Below are positions 24,631 to 35,131 of a DNA stretch of 48,558 nucleotides, piece after piece. The notes under the pieces are model-generated. The model did not search any database, was not told the DNA's origin, and saw only the letters and a program-made list of their open reading frames with translations. How positions within the stretch are numbered: position 1 is the first letter of the stretch; every line of letters begins with the position of its first letter. The translations under genes were made by a program, and so were the position numbers. The stretch covers positions 1 to 48,558 of the forward strand of contig JAIPAP010000012.1 in the NCBI GenBank assembly GCA_021740045.1. The letters run 5' to 3'. Origin of the DNA: Bacteroidales bacterium (GTDB taxonomy: Bacteria; Bacteroidota; Bacteroidia; Bacteroidales; JAIPAP01).

Positions 24631-27012
24631 ATGTGGAAAAACTACCTGAAAACAGCCTGGCGGAACATGATCAGGCAAAGAGCCTACTCCATCATTAATG
24701 TGTTGGGGCTTTCCATCGGGATGGCGGCATTTATACTCATTGCCCTTTTTGTGATCCATGAATTGAGCTATGATAAGTTCCATACCGATGCCGGCCGGAT
24801 TTACCGTGTGGGCTTGCAAATGAAACAGGAAACCAGCGAACAACGCTTTATTCATTTAATGGCACCATTGGCCGAAGCCCTAGAAACGGAAATTCCGGAA
24901 ATAGAATCGGCCAACCGCAATGTGTATTGGGACGATAAAGTGCAGTTCGATTATGGCGAGAAACGGGTTTTTGAAGGAAATACCCTGTTTACCGAAAAGG
25001 ATTTCTTTCGCTTTTATTCCCATAAACTCTCAAGGGGAAACCCCGAAACTGCCTTGGTGGAACCTTACTCCATGGTGCTAACCGAAAGCCTGGCTAAGAA
25101 ACTTTTTGGTGATCAAGATCCCATGGGTAAGATGGTCAAGTTGCGTGGTGACGATGATTTCAAGATCACCGGTATCATGGCCGATCCGCCTTCCGTAACC
25201 CATATGCCCATTTCGGCAGTGGTTTCCTTCGCCACCATTTATGAAAAAACGCTTAAAGACTGGAAATGGGATTTATGGTTCGGAAACTTTTCTTTTCCCA
25301 CCTACGTGAAGTTGGCCAAAGGAGCAAGCCTGGAGGATGTGAAAAAACGCATGCCCGAATTCACCCATAAACACCTCTTGCATAAATGGGAAAAATATGG
25401 CGTGGATGCCGAATTTTTCTTTCAGCCCTTGACCGAAATTCATCTTCATTCCCATCTTTCCGATGAACTGGCTGTAAATGGCGATATTAAGAATGTGTAT
25501 ATTTTTTCCACGGTAGCTTTTTTCATCTTGCTTATTGCTGCCATCAATTACATCAACCTGAGTACGGCCCGCTCCCTGAAACGTGCCCGCGAAGTGGGAT
25601 TGCGTAAAACCTTTGGTGCAGAACGTAAGCAGATCATCCAACAATTCCTGAGCGAATCGGTTATCACCACCCTGATATCCCTGGTGATTTCTTTTATCCT
25701 GGTGGAGGCCTTCTTACCGGAATTCAATAACCTGGCTGAGCGAAACATCCAAAGCAGTATGCTGCTTGAGGCCAGCCCGCTTATTTTATTGGGCATTGTG
25801 CTGTTGGTGGGTATCTTGGCCGGCAGCTACCCCGCTTTTTACCTTTCATGCTACGAAGTGGATGATGTGCTGCGCAACAAGGCTGGCAAAGGCGCCGGGC
25901 ACTCGGCTTTCAGAAATTCACTGGTGGTGGTACAGTTTGTTATTTCCATCGGATTGATCATTGGTACCGGGATTATCTACAGTCAGCTGAGGTACATGAC
26001 CGGCAAAGACCTGGGGTATGAAAAAGAACATTTGCTGTCAATCGATTACTATGGTGAAGATCTGGAAGAGAATTATGCTTCCCTGAAAGGGGAATTGCTT
26101 TCCATTCCGCAAGTAAAATCGGTGAGCGTGGCTTCCGGTGACCCGGTAAATTACGGCTACATGGAGGGCCATCTGCCCGAAGGCTTCAAAGACCCCATGA
26201 TGGTAAATGTACTATTTATGGATGATGATTACATCGAAACCTGTGGAATGGAATTGATCCTGGGCGAAAACTTCCGGGCCGAAGCCGCCGGAAACGATCT
26301 TTCCATGATCGTGAACGAAACCATGGTAAAACAATGCGGATGGGATAACCCCATTGGGAAAAAAGTGGAGCGGAATAATAAAACCTATAATGTAATCGGA
26401 GTAGTGAAAGATTTCCATTTCGCCTCATTGCATACACCCATCGGTCCGCTTGTTATACGGCACGAACCCGATAGATTTGGAACCTTCCTCCTGAAAATTA
26501 GCGGAAAAAATGTGTCTGCTACCATCAATCAACTGGAGGGAATGTGGAAAGGGATCGACCTCAAACGGCCGATGAATTATTCCTTTATGGACCGTAAATA
26601 CAACGCCACTTATAGCAATGATCAGCGCTTCGGGACCATCTTTCTTTACTTTAGTATATTGGCGATTTTTATTGCCTGCCTTGGACTGTTAGGCCTGGCA
26701 GCCTATACAGCCGAGCAGCGCACACGCGAGATCGGTATCCGAAAAGTGCACGGAGCCACCACGGTGAATATTCTGAAACTGCTTTCTTCCGATCTGGCCA
26801 AATGGATCGTCGTGGCCAGCATCATTGCCTGGCCCCTGGGATGGTATTTTATGGATAAGTGGTTGGAAGGGTTCGCTTATCATATCGATATGAAATGGTG
26901 GCTGTTTGGCGCTGCGGCCGTGCTGGCCCTGTTCGTCGCTATGGCAACCGTCAATATTCAGGCCTACAGGGCCGCTTCACAGAATCCGGCAGATACGTTG
27001 AAGTATGAGTAG
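24631..27012 (+). CDS. FtsX/MacB-like ABC transporter permease (paralogue 3)
   Basis: The 793-residue protein has TM1 (YSIINVLGLSIGMAAFILIA), a MacB-like periplasmic domain, first FtsX unit with AREVGLRKTFGAE, central helix (SLVVVQFVISIGLIIGTGII), second periplasmic domain and second FtsX unit with TREIGIRKVHGAT, ending NPADTLKYE. It is separated from paralogue 2 by 200 bp of palindromic and octameric repeats, so it may be transcribed on its own. As with the others, no ATPase gene is adjacent. Confidence 0.9.
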   Translation: MWKNYLKTAWRNMIRQRAYSIINVLGLSIGMAAFILIALFVIHELSYDKFHTDAGRIYRVGLQMKQETSEQRFIHLMAPLAEALETEIPEIESANRNVYWDDKVQFDYGEKRVFEGNTLFTEKDFFRFYSHKLSRGNPETALVEPYSMVLTESLAKKLFGDQDPMGKMVKLRGDDDFKITGIMADPPSVTHMPISAVVSFATIYEKTLKDWKWDLWFGNFSFPTYVKLAKGASLEDVKKRMPEFTHKHLLHKWEKYGVDAEFFFQPLTEIHLHSHLSDELAVNGDIKNVYIFSTVAFFILLIAAINYINLSTARSLKRAREVGLRKTFGAERKQIIQQFLSESVITTLISLVISFILVEAFLPEFNNLAERNIQSSMLLEASPLILLGIVLLVGILAGSYPAFYLSCYEVDDVLRNKAGKGAGHSAFRNSLVVVQFVISIGLIIGTGIIYSQLRYMTGKDLGYEKEHLLSIDYYGEDLEENYASLKGELLSIPQVKSVSVASGDPVNYGYMEGHLPEGFKDPMMVNVLFMDDDYIETCGMELILGENFRAEAAGNDLSMIVNETMVKQCGWDNPIGKKVERNNKTYNVIGVVKDFHFASLHTPIGPLVIRHEPDRFGTFLLKISGKNVSATINQLEGMWKGIDLKRPMNYSFMDRKYNATYSNDQRFGTIFLYFSILAIFIACLGLLGLAAYTAEQRTREIGIRKVHGATTVNILKLLSSDLAKWIVVASIIAWPLGWYFMDKWLEGFAYHIDMKWWLFGAAAVLALFVAMATVNIQAYRAASQNPADTLKYE

Positions 27013-27034: not shown

Positions 27035-27080
27035 CTCGTTAAAAACGAGGGAATTTATAGGGCAGGTGTTAAGTCAATGC
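27035..27080 (+). repeat. REP-like element A, left-end fragment
   Basis: CTCGTTAAAAACGAG hairpin (27035-27049) followed by GGGCAGGTGTTAAGTC, a degenerate copy of the left end GGGCACGCGTTAAGTC seen in element C. Only the left end remains. Confidence 0.65.
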
Positions 27081-27419: not shown

Positions 27420-29834
27420 ATGATACGCAATTACATTACCCTGGCCATTCGTATGCTGAAAAAGCAAAAGCTTTACACCTTTATCAATATCGTTGGGCTT
27501 TCTATCGGTATAGCTACCTGCCTGCTTATTCTTACCTATGTGCAGCATGAACTAAGCTACGACCGTTTTCATGCGGATGCCGACCGCATCTTCCGCATTG
27601 TTGAAACCCGCAAGATCACCGAGCAGCCCCAGCAACTGGCTAGCAGTCCGGCGCCGGTAGCCGGGCATTTTCCACAGGTATTTCCCGATATTCCGGTAAC
27701 CCGCTTTATTCCTTTTTCGGAACGGTTTAAGATGGAATCGGGGGACAAAAAATTCATGGAAACCGGTTTCTTTTTCGCTGATCCCAGCCTGTTCGAAGTG
27801 TTTGATTTCAGCCTGATCAACGGAAATGAAAATACGGTGCTGCGAAAACCGGGGACCGTTCTTATATCAGAAACCATGGCCCAAAAATATTTTGGTGAAC
27901 AATCTCCCCTGGGGAAGACCCTAAGCCTTAAGGGACAACTTCCCCTGGTGGTGGAAGGCGTTTTTAAGAATGTCCCTGATAATTCACACATCCGCTTCCA
28001 TTTTCTCTCCTCCACCTTAACGGCCGAAAAGGTTTTCGGTCAATCCCTGATGAGCAGCGGTTCATGGTGGTCACCTCCGGCATATACCTATATCAAGCTT
28101 CCCGCTTCCATGGATCCGGCCAATGTTGAAAGGCAGCTTACAAGCATTATGGAACGCTATCCTGACGGCGATATGACCAAAAAGCGACTGCTGAGTCTTC
28201 AGCCGCTGACCGATATTCACCTGCAATCGCACCGTAACCAGGAATTGCAGGCCAACAACCGCCTCAGCAATATATACCTCTTTATGGCCGTAGCCGCCTT
28301 TATCCTGGTCATTGCCTGCCTCAATTTTGTCAACCTGTCCACCGCCCGTTCTCTTAAGCGGGCCCGTGAAGTGGGTATGCGGAAGGTGATCGGGGCTACC
28401 CGCAAGCAACTTATCTTCCGGTTTTTGTCGGAATCCTTTCTTTTGGTTATCCTGGCTTTTGTCATTGCCCTTGCCTTGGTGGAGGTCTTTTTACCGTTGT
28501 TCAACCAACTATGGGAGAAGGAACTTAGCTCAAACTTCCTGCAATTCAACGGGTTCTGGATTAGCAGCCTGCTGGTAATAGCGATCACCGGACTTTTGGC
28601 CGGTGGGTACCCGGCGTTTTATCTTTCGGCATTTACACCGGCTCACGCCATGCGAAACCAAGCCGGAAAACCTGCCGGAAAATGGAGCTTGCGCAGGGCC
28701 TTGGTAGTGGTGCAGTTTGCCTTTGCCATTTTATTGATGATAGGAACCGCCATTATCCTCGATCAGCATCGTTTTATCAAAACCAAAAATTTGGGTTTTG
28801 ACCGGGATAATATCCTGGCAATACCCATTATGAATGAACAGGTAAAGGCAAAACGGGATTTTATCAAGAATGAATTGCAACAGAACCCCAACATCAAAAA
28901 TGTGAGCTTTACCGGTGGTTTGCCGGGGATGAAGTCGCTTTCGGAATTTCCCTATCAAATTGAAGGACAGGATAAGGAAAGCCTGCCCAACATCCTGGTG
29001 TACATGACCGATTATGATTTTGTGAGTACCTTTGATATGGAGCTGGCAGAAGGCCGCGTCTTTTCCCGCGAATACCAAACCGATAAGGATAAAGCCTTTC
29101 TGATCAATGAAAAGGCAGCCCGCACTTTTGGCTGGGATAACGCCACCGGCAAAGATTTCACCCTCCTTCAGTTCGATGGCAAAGGCATGCAAACCAAGGA
29201 GGGTAAGATCATTGGGGTGGTGAAGGATTTTCATTTTAACAGCCTGCACGAAAATATTGAGCCCATTGTGATGGAAATACCCCCGGCCGATTTTTACCTG
29301 AGCCATATCGCCATCCGCATGAAAGCCGGGGCTTCGCAGCAGGTGATCGATTTTTTGGAAAGCCGGTGGGATGAGATCGCTCCCGGCACCGGCCTGAGCT
29401 GGTTCTTCTTCGATGAACATCTGGATAAACTTTACCGCAGCGAGCAAAAGCTCACCAGCATCTTCACCAGCTTTTCGGCGCTTGCTATTTTTGTGGCCTG
29501 CCTGGGCTTGTTTGGGCTGGTGTCCTTTATGAGCGAACAGCGCACCCGCGAAATCGCCGTGCGCAAGGTGTTTGGCGCCTCCTCCAAAACCCTCACCCTG
29601 ATGCTCATCCGTGACTTCACCCGCTGGGCTTTGCTGGCCAATATCATGGCCTGGCCCGTGGCCTATTATTTCGGTTCGGACTGGCTGAACAACTTCGCTT
29701 ACCGCACGCCCCTGCATTGGTGGATTTTCCCGGCAGCCGCCATTCTAACCCTCATCATCGCCATCGCCACCGTCTCGGCCTATGCCATCAAAACCGCTAA
29801 TGTGAACCCGGGGGAGACGTTGAAGGATGAGTAG
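27420..29834 (+). CDS. FtsX/MacB-like ABC transporter permease (paralogue 4)
   Basis: The 804-residue protein has TM1 (YTFINIVGLSIGIATCLLIL), a periplasmic domain, first FtsX unit with AREVGMRKVIGAT, central helix (ALVVVQFAFAILLMIGTAII), second periplasmic domain and second FtsX unit with TREIAVRKVFGAS, ending NPGETLKDE. The final residues differ from the ALRYE ending of most paralogues. It is isolated on both sides by repeat-rich spacers of 407 bp (upstream) and by the REP/transposase segment (downstream), so it is likely its own transcription unit. Confidence 0.9.
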   Translation: MIRNYITLAIRMLKKQKLYTFINIVGLSIGIATCLLILTYVQHELSYDRFHADADRIFRIVETRKITEQPQQLASSPAPVAGHFPQVFPDIPVTRFIPFSERFKMESGDKKFMETGFFFADPSLFEVFDFSLINGNENTVLRKPGTVLISETMAQKYFGEQSPLGKTLSLKGQLPLVVEGVFKNVPDNSHIRFHFLSSTLTAEKVFGQSLMSSGSWWSPPAYTYIKLPASMDPANVERQLTSIMERYPDGDMTKKRLLSLQPLTDIHLQSHRNQELQANNRLSNIYLFMAVAAFILVIACLNFVNLSTARSLKRAREVGMRKVIGATRKQLIFRFLSESFLLVILAFVIALALVEVFLPLFNQLWEKELSSNFLQFNGFWISSLLVIAITGLLAGGYPAFYLSAFTPAHAMRNQAGKPAGKWSLRRALVVVQFAFAILLMIGTAIILDQHRFIKTKNLGFDRDNILAIPIMNEQVKAKRDFIKNELQQNPNIKNVSFTGGLPGMKSLSEFPYQIEGQDKESLPNILVYMTDYDFVSTFDMELAEGRVFSREYQTDKDKAFLINEKAARTFGWDNATGKDFTLLQFDGKGMQTKEGKIIGVVKDFHFNSLHENIEPIVMEIPPADFYLSHIAIRMKAGASQQVIDFLESRWDEIAPGTGLSWFFFDEHLDKLYRSEQKLTSIFTSFSALAIFVACLGLFGLVSFMSEQRTREIAVRKVFGASSKTLTLMLIRDFTRWALLANIMAWPVAYYFGSDWLNNFAYRTPLHWWIFPAAAILTLIIAIATVSAYAIKTANVNPGETLKDE

Positions 29835-29858: not shown

Positions 29859-30063
29859 CTCGTTCCAAACGAGGGATTTTATTCGGCACGCATTAGGTTC
29901 CAGCGTTCCGTAAGGCCGGCACATTGAGTACACCAATTGCTATCCGCCCAAACCGCGCGCCATCGAACGTCTTTGCAAACAGCCGTATGGGGTGCGCTTT
30001 GCAAACAGCCAGCTGGCGCGCGTTTGTAACGCGTGCCCAATGATTTCACTCGCTTGTAGCGAG
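29859..30063 (+). repeat. REP-like palindrome-ended element B
   Basis: A 205-bp element. The left hairpin is CTCGTTCCAAACGAG (29859-29873), the internal sequence includes CCGCCCAAACCGCGCGCCATC, and the right end has hairpin GGCGCGCGTTTGTAACGCG-TGCC (30015-30037) and CTCGCTTGTAGCGAG (30049-30063). It ends 10 bp from the stop of the transposase gene. Confidence 0.85.
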
Positions 30064-30073
30064 GAAAGATTTA

Positions 30074-30637
30074 TCAAAATGATCGCAGTTCAGGTGTAAC
30101 CAATTCCACATCCAACAATGAATCTAGCCCGGCATAATTTCGTGCTGAACTGAAAAGATAATGTTCCGGCTTTTCAACAATCATTTCCTTAACCGGATTA
30201 TTATGAATATAATTCAACTTCTGCCACAAAAAATCATTGGAATAAATTAACTCAGGATGATTCCCATCCTGCCACATTTTGTAGTTCTTTATACGATTTA
30301 AGTACTGCCCTGTATATCCAAAATAAGAAAGCATCCATTTTCTTCTTCCCTCCTTTTCTGAAGCAATATTGTCAATTATCCTCTTAGTGGTATACTTTTT
30401 AAAATCCCTTATAATACCGCCGAGGTTTTCATCCTTTGCCTGTGCAATCATATGCAAGTGATTACTCATTAAACAATACCCATATATGATCAATCCTTTC
30501 TTGTCCTGACAAAATTTAAGCGAATTCAATATAACAAGTTTATGTTCTTTTTTAGCAAATACATCAATCCATCCGGTAATTGTGGAGGTTATGAAATAGG
30601 CTTTATCAGGATCAATTATTTTGTATTTCTCTGACAT
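30074..30637 (-). CDS. REP-associated tyrosine transposase (RAYT, IS200-like Y1 family)
   Basis: The 187-residue protein belongs to the HUH single-strand transposase superfamily. The metal-binding HxH is in LMSNHLHMI (His60, His62), preceded by GYCLMSN as usual. The C-terminal part has the RAYT-type tail WQKLNYIHNNPVKEMIVEKP followed by YLFSSARNYAGL, which separates RAYTs from plain IS200 transposases. The catalytic tyrosine should be Tyr112 or Tyr119 (GQYLNRIKNYKMW); I cannot decide between them. Length and motifs look intact. Such proteins nick and move REP palindromes, often as single-copy domesticated genes. Flanking palindromic elements B and C support the assignment. Confidence 0.9.
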   Translation of the reverse strand: MSEKYKIIDPDKAYFITSTITGWIDVFAKKEHKLVILNSLKFCQDKKGLIIYGYCLMSNHLHMIAQAKDENLGGIIRDFKKYTTKRIIDNIASEKEGRRKWMLSYFGYTGQYLNRIKNYKMWQDGNHPELIYSNDFLWQKLNYIHNNPVKEMIVEKPEHYLFSSARNYAGLDSLLDVELVTPELRSF

Positions 30638-30716
30638 TTGATTGATATGTTGTGGTAAATATACGATAAGATCACAAGCTAAATCAATGAATTTTTATGA
30701 AAGAAGGAATATAGGA

Positions 30717-30987
30717 CTCGTTACAAACGAGGGAATTTTACAGGGCACGCGTTAAGTCCCTGCACTCAATAGGGCCTGCGCATTGAGCAAACCAACTGCA
30801 ATCCGCCTGAAACGCGCGCCAGCTAACGTCTTTGCTAACAGCCGTATGGGGTGCGCTTTGCAACCCGCCCGCTGGCACGCGTTTGCAACGCGTGCCTTCT
30901 AAATTGCTGACCGGCGTATGTTTTGCAGGAAGTCTGATGGCGCGCGTTTGTAACACGTGCCGAATGGTTTCACTCGCTTGTAGCGAG
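30717..30987 (+). repeat. REP-like palindrome-ended element C
   Basis: 271 bp. Left hairpin CTCGTTACAAACGAG (30717-30731); then GGGCACGCGTTAAGTC. Two right-end hairpins: a perfect 10-bp stem GGCACGCGTT/AACGCGTGCC (30874-30896) and a degenerate copy (30939-30961). Final hairpin CTCGCTTGTAGCGAG (30973-30987). The doubled right end suggests a tandem insertion or partial duplication. Confidence 0.85.
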
Positions 30988-31049: not shown

Positions 31050-31165
31050 CTCGTTACAAACGAGGAGCTTTACCGGGCACGCATTAGGTTCCTGCATCAC
31101 GATGCTAAAGAACAATTTCTAGTCCGTAGTGCAACCCTCCTGAAACGCTCGCCATCGAACGTCAA
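31050..31165 (+). repeat. REP-like element D, truncated
   Basis: Left hairpin CTCGTTACAAACGAG (31050-31064) followed by GGGCACGCATTAGGTTCCTGC and internal CTGAAACGCTCGCCATCGAACG; the right-end hairpins are missing. Confidence 0.75.
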
Positions 31166-31219: not shown

Positions 31220-31311
31220 GGGTTTCAACTTTTTCAGGGAATTGAAACCCGACGAACAGGTTTTAAATCCTGAACCTTTGCCTTTAGGCCGGTATCAGGG
31301 TTGGAAGACTT
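31220..31311. repeat. Inverted repeat and copy 1 of a dispersed repeat
   Basis: GGGTTTCAA (31220-31228) pairs with TTGAAACCC (31242-31250). The following stretch (about 31258-31308, with TTTAAATCCTGAACCTTTGCC) is similar to 35181-35233, so both belong to one dispersed intergenic repeat. Confidence 0.6.
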
Positions 31312-31349
31312 AAGCAATCAAATTATAAAAGGCTGATAGAAGCAAATCA

Positions 31350-31399
31350 TTACCCCGTTAAATAAGCCTTCGGCTTAGCAAAGCTATTTAACGGGGTAA
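31350..31399. repeat. Large cruciform-like inverted repeat
   Basis: TTACCCCGTTAAATA (31350-31364) is perfectly complementary to TATTTAACGGGGTAA (31385-31399), and the interior AAGCC-TTC-GGCTT makes a second small hairpin. The structure lies in the spacer after the FISUMP gene. No T-run follows on either strand. Confidence 0.8.
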
Positions 31400-31428
31400 A
31401 CGGGTAACTGATCATAAGTAGCCATAGC

Positions 31429-34642: not shown

Positions 34643-34742
34643 CTAAAAACCATCTTTGTGTTTATCAACCTGTAAATATACAACATATTTTTGTCGGTTA
34701 GCTTATTTTGAAATGACTATAATTGTAAAAAGACGGGGGACA

Positions 34743-34787
34743 AGCATTTGCAACGCGTGCCTATTGATTTCACTCGCTTGTAGCGAG
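34743..34787 (+). repeat. REP-like element E, right-end fragment
   Basis: AGCATTTGCAACGCGTGCC followed by CTCGCTTGTAGCGAG (34773-34787). The left part is missing. Confidence 0.75.
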
Positions 34788-34847: not shown

Positions 34848-35131
34848 CTCGTTCAAAACGAGGGGGTTTTATGGGCACGCGTTAGGTTGCTGCATTACGT
34901 TGTTTTAGGACAATTACTAATCCTTATTGCAATCCGCCCAAAACGCGCGCCATCTCACGGTTCTGCATTAAGCTTACGGATAAGGATTTTCATCTCGCAT
35001 TATATGCCCTGAATGTCATACGTTTTTTCCGGCATCTCTATCAATTACTGATTGTTCTTCAGAACTCCGCAACCCGCCGGCTGGCGCGCGTTTGCAACGC
35101 GTGCCGACTGATTTCCCTCGCTTGTAGCGAG
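34848..35131 (+). repeat. REP-like palindrome-ended element F
   Basis: 284 bp and apparently complete: left hairpin CTCGTTCAAAACGAG (34848-34862), GGGCACGCGTTAGGTTGCTGC, internal CCGCCCAAAACGCGCGCCATC, right hairpin GGCGCGCGTTTGCAACGCG-TGCC (35083-35105) and CTCGCTTGTAGCGAG (35117-35131). No gene inside. Confidence 0.85.

Follow-up and report, generated by a model that had tools for sequence, protein, structure and literature searches.

The window analysed here, the whole stretch of 48,558 bp of DNA from a Bacteroidales bacterium, was contig C155 of a 3.9-Mb genome in 161 contigs. An open reading frame on the minus strand (30074-30637) encoded a protein of 187 amino acids, which was assigned from its profile matches and motifs as a Y1 HUH transposase of the RAYT type. 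The protein scored 31.6 bits against Pfam Y1_Tnp (cut-off 23) and 96.8 bits against the NCBIfam model REP_Tyr_transpos NF047646 (cut-off 80), which represents RAYT/TnpAREP. The motifs NHLH, WQ and YIHNNP were located at residues 59, 122 and 143, respectively, with SS at 163-164, and the distance from H60 to Y143 was 83. According to the text of Quentin et al. 2018 (PMC6006769), subclass 2.6 (group 5) RAYTs are recognised by NH[LIV]H, WQ, YIH[QN]NP, an SS tail and an HUH-to-Tyr distance near 82. All of these features were present in the window protein, which by motifs, distance and length appears to fit this subclass. The best solved relative in a profile search was E. coli TnpArep (4er8, E 6.8e-8), whereas a single-sequence search of solved structures found none. 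The gene was present in a single copy in this genome, and the inverted repeats flanking it were dispersed through the genome, the combination of low gene copy number and dispersed flanking repeats that marks RAYT/TnpAREP genes. Its named relatives came from Gillisia, a Bacteroidales MAG and Galbibacter. At two of these three loci (L054 and L056) the gene was flanked by hairpins with other stems, and no hairpin of such kind was found near the RAYT of the third (L055).

The RAYT gene was accompanied by palindromes beginning with CTCG. The right hairpin, CTCGCTTGTAGCGAG, occurred exactly at 30049, 30973, 34773 and 35117, and the left hairpin, CTCGTTnnnAACGAG, at 27035, 29859, 30717, 31050 and 34848, compared with 0.03 matches expected from shuffles, which shows that these hairpins are real. 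Left and right hairpins bounded element B (29859-30063, 205 bp), element C (30717-30987, 271 bp) and element F (34848-35131, 284 bp). As described in an earlier sequence-only reading of this DNA, B and C were in direct orientation with the RAYT reading frame between them, and the minus-strand left hairpins (30717 and 31050) differed from the right hairpin at exactly two positions that paired with each other, a compensating difference.

The CTCG palindrome was found to be one part of a repeat with two hairpins, called the "module" below. From 5' to 3' on the strand carrying a G.T wobble, the module consisted of an (A)GCT "foot", hairpin 1, an AT-rich link of 8-12 nt, and hairpin 2. Hairpin 1 followed the pattern GGCGCnnnnYTGYRnnnnGTGCC with a TGY triloop. 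Hairpin 2 was the CTCG palindrome, with the form CTCGYTTGYARCGAG in the window's genome and other sequences elsewhere. The right-end (RE) type of module comprised GCT, hairpin 1 (GGCGCGCGTT TGY AACGCGTGCC; 10 pairs, with G.T at the fourth), about 11 nt ending in ATTTCA, and hairpin 2 (CTCGCT TGT AGCGAG). The left-end (LE) type was the same module reversed, with an insertion of roughly 60 nt in the loop of hairpin 1. The large size of B, C and F is explained by this insertion and by variable linkers. Three stem states of hairpin 2 were found in the window's genome (CTCGTT/AACGAG, CTCGCT/AGCGAG and CTCGTC/GACGAG), the third of them on contigs C103 and C92. A perfect 10-bp stem, GGCACGCGTT/AACGCGTGCC, had been given as a feature of the right end. 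It does exist, but only in a single copy (30874-30896); the usual form was GGCGCGCGTT/AACGCGTGCC with G.T at the fourth position.

On either side of the RAYT gene, the right-end module of B lay at 30012-30063 on the plus strand (GCT foot, hairpin 1 at 30015-30037, hairpin 2 CTCGCTTGTAGCGAG at 30049-30063) and the reversed module at the left end of C at 30717-30835 on the minus strand, both located by sequence and fold. In the latter, hairpin 2 occupied 30717-30731, the two arms of hairpin 1 (30744-30753 and 30811-30820) were separated by a loop of about 57 nt, and the outer edge was near TTTGC at 30835. The left end of B was a reversed module at 29859-29976 (minus strand; hairpin 2 at 29859-29873). 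Element C contained two copies of hairpin 1. One belonged to its right-end module, located by sequence and fold at 30936-30987 on the plus strand (hairpin 1 at 30939-30961, hairpin 2 at 30973-30987), and the other, identified from printed copies, was an extra hairpin 1 on the plus strand (30874-30896), in which A-T replaced G.T to give the perfect stem. A reversed module consisting of a left end only (D, 31050-31165, minus strand) followed C after 62 bp. Farther right, module E (34739-34787, plus strand; hairpin 2 at 34773-34787) had a decayed hairpin 1 and was followed after 60 bp by the reversed module at the left end of F (34848-34970, minus strand; hairpin 2 at 34848-34862). The right-end module of F, supported by sequence and fold, occupied 35080-35131 on the plus strand (hairpin 1 at 35083-35105, hairpin 2 at 35117-35131). 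To the left, a decayed reversed module (A, 27035-27075, minus strand) was recognised by sequence and BLASTN. Module A and the left-end module of B lay 23 bp and 25 bp, respectively, after the stop codons of two tandem genes. These genes (24631-27012 and 27420-29834) are paralogues that we take to be ABC-permease-like, and the module after each of them may have been duplicated along with the gene.

Folding of the right-end modules as single-stranded DNA gave lower z values on the G.T strand than on the other strand, where the fourth pair became an A.C mismatch. The values were -5.16 versus -3.94 for B, -4.38 (plus strand) versus -2.77 for F, and -2.79 versus -2.49 for C.

The proposal that the hairpins belong to a dispersed family was confirmed by their recurrence outside the window. 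Exact hairpins in the genome numbered 7 right and 15 left, element C gave 43 BLASTN matches, and the repeat copies were spread over about a dozen contigs. The modules tabulated, about 20 of the left-end and 14 of the right-end type, occurred singly, as inverted pairs of both arrangements, and in mosaic clusters, an organisation like that of REPINs and BIMEs. Elements B, C and F were inverted pairs of the LE-RE arrangement, and the RAYT gene lay inside a pair of the opposite, RE-LE arrangement. The LE-RE pairs, found at about eight places by reading of the printed loci, had gaps that varied in B, C, F and others. In RE-LE pairs the gap was 58-62 bp in 10 of 10 tabulated cases, and the spacers fell into two or more clearly unrelated sequence families in addition to the spacer between C and D. 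Repeated examples of both pairings in the window's genome leave it ambiguous which unit moves there.

Pairing in hairpin 1 was followed across genomes of the order with search patterns that left the four central stem positions of each arm open, and the reversed pattern served as the control. Pattern GGCGCNNNNYTGYRNNNNGTGCC gave 59 matches in 10 of 99 genomes, and its reversed control gave none in all 99. All four open positions were paired in 50 of the 59 matches, among which 20 distinct stem variants occurred; the other nine included three genomes with one match each and one position paired, which were taken as chance. When the fourth pair was also left open, pattern TGGCRCNNNNYTGYRNNNNGYGCC matched 48 of 393 genomes, and its reversed control gave no match in the 393. 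The TGGCRCNNNNYTGYRNNNNGYGCC matches listed were the first places in each genome, and 47 of the 48 matched genomes entered the counts (G297 was outside). Among the 150 matches listed from these 47 genomes, 121 paired at four of four positions, 22 at three and 7 at two or fewer; the last 7 were dropped from the wobble and co-occurrence counts. The fourth pair in the remaining 143 listed matches, all with at least three pairs, was G.T in 134, G-C in 5, A-T in 4 and A.C in none. The maintenance of pairing at open stem positions, together with the G.T in 134 of 143, indicates that the stem is held by pairing and that its fourth position is held as a wobble. The wobble is kept on the strand with TGY in its loop. 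A sample of 45 rows chosen by hand from 25 families was biased, since nearly all of these rows were already paired, and its count of 166 of 180 does not belong to the main evidence. The covariation suggested by the two hairpins of the window is thus real, and it was far stronger across genomes (four of four positions in 121 of 150 listed matches) than in the window alone. On contig C52 of G214 (L181:1-420), five modules were arranged in direct tandem with a spacing of exactly 97 bp, resembling a VNTR array.

The sequences around hairpin 1 were compared in 73 distinct contexts. At the foot, position -3 was G in 70 of them, position -2 was C in 60, and position -1 was T in all 73, the last being partly imposed by the search pattern. 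The foot read GCT in 59 contexts and GTT in 9; the canonical REP sequences GTAG or GTGG were absent from the 5' foot. No conservation comparable to that of the foot was found on the 3' side of hairpin 1 in the same contexts. A second hairpin (stem of at least 6, within 50 nt) followed hairpin 1 in 33 of the 73, compared with 1.7% in shuffles.

The family of the window was represented by the window's genome only, and the element edges were sought by other comparisons. Within this genome, with one copy taken from each of 11 flank clusters, the mean pairwise identity of left-end copies was 0.25-0.40 in the flanks and rose to 0.96 where CTCG begins. This jump shows that CTCG is one true edge of the left-end copies. 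Comparison with related genera placed the other edge at the foot of hairpin 1. Of 16 module ends listed in the genus of G082, 15 were preceded by AGCT and the sixteenth by GGCT, with flanks that were otherwise unrelated. A complete unit of 709 bp in G186 had the order AGCT-hairpin 1-hairpin 2-RAYT-hairpin 2-hairpin 1-AGCT. By BLASTN, short copies on contigs C108 (156 bp), C15 and C257 of G082 and C76 of G186 matched the two ends of this unit without its middle. The copy on C108 matched positions 1-62 and 608-709 of the unit and, by reading, kept the last dozen codons of the RAYT gene; on contig C10 of G037, the 3' end of a RAYT gene was joined to the far end. The genus of G082 therefore contains what is expected of MITEs, short copies with the same two ends as a unit that bears the transposase, and the RAYT unit together with these internally deleted copies ending in AGCT-hairpin 1 supports a MITE-like derivation, as judged from sequence comparison. 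The earlier claim that CTCG palindromes are the copy boundaries holds for one sharp edge, but the other edge, judged from relatives, is probably the GCT/AGCT foot preceding hairpin 1. The idea of CTCG at both ends of one element is disfavoured, since RAYT units and their derivatives in related genera end at the foot and carry hairpin 2 inside.

In the window, AGCT encloses the RAYT gene at 30011-30014 and 30821-30824. By analogy with the genus of G082 and with G368 and G144, the RAYT unit of the window probably ends at these positions, which would give a unit of 814 bp on the minus strand (30011-30824) with the order AGCT-module-RAYT-reversed module-AGCT. The only sign of deletion derivatives in the window's own genome was a decayed 5' fragment of the RAYT gene (86% identity) adjoining a module on contig C159, which suggests at least one event in which gene and module were copied jointly. 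The genomes compared, including the genus of G082, yielded no clean empty site. In the best presence/absence case, a locus common to four genomes, G275, G341 and G186 had a single module that G082 lacked, with 7 unmatched bases in G082. The module edges at this locus were AGCT and hairpin 2, two of the three module copies had a damaged hairpin 1, and gain and loss were indistinguishable. At another site, G275 lacked the RAYT unit of G082, with one junction only on the contig. Repeated flanks at L218, in the genus of G082, gave no empty site, and another candidate site was too rearranged to be read. Near position 18500 of contig C29 of G275 (L216), a fused junction, GCGCCAGCTGGCGC, looked as if two ends shared one AGCT, possibly a trace of a tandem or circular form.

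Hairpin 1 and RAYT genes occurred together more often than expected. A RAYT match at E <= 1e-10 was found in 87 of the 393 genomes of the order and in 27 of the 41 genomes that had a paired hairpin among the listed matches (hypergeometric p 1.7e-10, a value that ignores shared ancestry); the other 14 of the 41 had no RAYT at this threshold. Conversely, 60 of the 87 RAYT genomes had no hairpin 1 among the matches listed (59 if G297 is counted), and the code therefore belongs to a subset of RAYTs, or varies. Several RAYTs without hairpin 1 were flanked by hairpins that had other stems and the same TGY/RCA loops, such as CGGATTTGCAATCCG. Proximity was counted on the RAYT rows listed for hairpin genomes, none of which came from G359 or G139. 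Among these rows, hairpins lay within about 100 bp of RAYT genes in 11 genomes, and 16 of the 22 hairpin-RAYT pairs within 400 bp pointed inward (upstream on the strand of the gene or downstream on the other strand), while 6 did not. In G368 and G144, hairpins were present on both sides of the RAYT gene.

Other explanations of the locus were weighed against this evidence. A model that follows the sequence-only reading takes B, C and F for MITE-like transposons with CTCG ends that are moved in trans, with the RAYT gene between two of them by chance. Left-end copies that start exactly at CTCG within unrelated flanks (11 flank clusters) agree with it, as do the eight or so LE-RE pairs. However, several left ends (on C60 and C98, and D and A) had no right end nearby, RE-LE pairs with their nearly constant gap of 58-62 bp were at least as common (10 cases), and the units and derivatives of related genera have AGCT-hairpin 1 at their ends and hairpin 2 within. 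This explanation is unlikely as it was put; its MITE-like family survives in a related genus, in the copies derived from a RAYT unit, but B, C and F represent only one of two module pairings. An ordinary IS200/IS605 insertion sequence with subterminal hairpins, which would likewise have a Y1 HUH transposase and hairpins on both sides, is highly improbable here. The protein passed the RAYT model but scored 21.8 bits with the IS200 model (cut-off 55), one gene copy was accompanied by many repeats, and the Y-motif was YIHNNP of class 2 rather than YxxxQ, following the distinction drawn in the text of PMC6006769. Membership of IS200/IS605 was rejected on the score and the single gene copy.

We consider it quite improbable that the main role of the hairpins lies in RNA or in serving the host (as terminators, mRNA stabilisers, or sites for gyrase or IHF) and that their link to RAYT is historical, although several observations point that way. 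A G.T in DNA is equally a G.U pair in same-strand RNA, the modules of the window were intergenic, two of them 23-25 bp after stop codons, and such functions have been reported for REPs in the available text of PMC2817692. Against it, the genomes with hairpins were enriched for RAYT, the hairpins lay beside RAYT genes, mostly in inverted orientation, and the deletion derivatives behaved as copies of the RAYT unit. A known RNA family was also discarded, since no Rfam family reached its cut-off within the window.

The locus is probably a REP/RAYT system of a subclass 2.6 (group 5) RAYT in which the repeat is the two-hairpin module and the RAYT would drive its movement. The RAYT gene with its flanking inverted modules is a REPtron, and the module is the equivalent of a REP. 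The arrangement of modules is the mosaic organisation of BIMEs and REPINs known for other RAYTs from the texts of PMC2817692 and PMC3116915; the system is thus known in kind, and its hairpin code is its own. The text of PMC6006769 describes the flanking structures of subclass 2.6 RAYTs, which were identified through manual inspection, as atypical and devoid of GT[AG]G; the window shares with them the lack of GT[AG]G, the copies elsewhere in the genome and a Bacteroidetes host, in addition to the protein features described above (NHLH, WQ, YIHNNP, SS tail, length and HUH-to-Tyr distance). In the main text of that paper these repeats appear only as "atypical secondary structures", with no sequence given, beyond which the foot, wobble, loop, second hairpin and edges are defined here.

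Similar to REPINs as described in the available text of Bertels and Rainey 2011 (PMC3116915), the repeats formed inverted hairpin pairs that were linked to a RAYT, predicted to fold as single-stranded DNA, and non-autonomous. They differed from REPINs in having two hairpins per half (50-125 bp) and pairs of 205-284 bp or more, in lacking a GTAG or GTGG foot, and in their numbers (about 20 left and 14 right modules). As for BIMEs in the text of Nunvar et al. 2010 (PMC2817692), the repeats alternated in orientation with mosaic spacers and flanked the RAYT as inverted copies. Complementary stem changes and the capture of rayt 3' ends between repeats, both reported in that text, were found here too, whereas the foot, hairpin code, RAYT subclass and phylum were different. 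TIRYTs and TIRtrons (Di Nocera et al. 2013, PMC3733652, available text) also have a RAYT-like gene flanked by partly self-complementary inverted repeats. However, the texts of PMC6006769 and PMC3733652 place TIRYTs mostly in subclass 2.1 with a common GGGGWSAS-type motif, whereas the window protein carried subclass 2.6 motifs and no GGGGWSAS-type motif was seen in its repeats. In the literature text, as distinct from supplementary tables, no published description of the foot, wobble and loop was found, and six hairpin cores searched as text matched three papers, none of which, by its title and the opening of its abstract, dealt with RAYTs or REPs.

By analogy with other Y1 HUH enzymes, the RAYT, with its HUH motif and Tyr143, would bind folded hairpin 1 on an exposed single strand and cut at the foot through Tyr143. 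It may read the GCT foot, the wobble and the loop as other RAYTs read GTAG-footed REPs. The RAYT would then move or copy modules and module pairs, and the release of single modules or of either pairing could give the observed mosaic. A broader proposal, which we put forward tentatively and with somewhat less than even confidence, is that group 5 RAYTs of Bacteroidetes read a code of their own (GCT foot, G.T three base pairs above it, TGY triloop, freely varying stem and usually a second hairpin), forming a third REP superfamily beside GTAG and CGTC, that the one-strand wobble marks the processed strand, and that modules move singly, paired or with the gene. A wobble kept on one strand in 134 of 143 listed matches is hard to explain by double-stranded DNA alone, and it makes the processed strand testable. 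The conserved foot, wobble and loop provide concrete substrates and mutants for a binding or cleavage assay, and the hairpin 1 pattern is a search tool that needs no alignment. How a RAYT unit gives rise to short non-autonomous repeats is shown by the deletion series of one genus.

Several other sequences were observed near the modules. A dispersed repeat of about 58 bp lay to the right of the modules in the window (31258-31315), outside the hairpin modules, with copies on contigs C35, C103, C31 and C80; on C103 it was near LE-RE linkers. A long near-perfect inverted repeat, CCCCGTTAAATA...TATTTAACGGGG, was seen by eye at 31350-31400 and also gave a self-match on the opposite strand. In the same genome, which has one RAYT, a second hairpin family with the stem GGATT and the loop TGT was nested in linkers and also occurred alone elsewhere (L014 and L016 on contig C103, L113 on C88, and G000:C46:8107-8130). 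Part of a group II intron (Rfam RF00029, 64.3 bits) abutted a left-end module at L032:1425-1500 (C125, near 42300), as if the hairpin region had served as the intron target.
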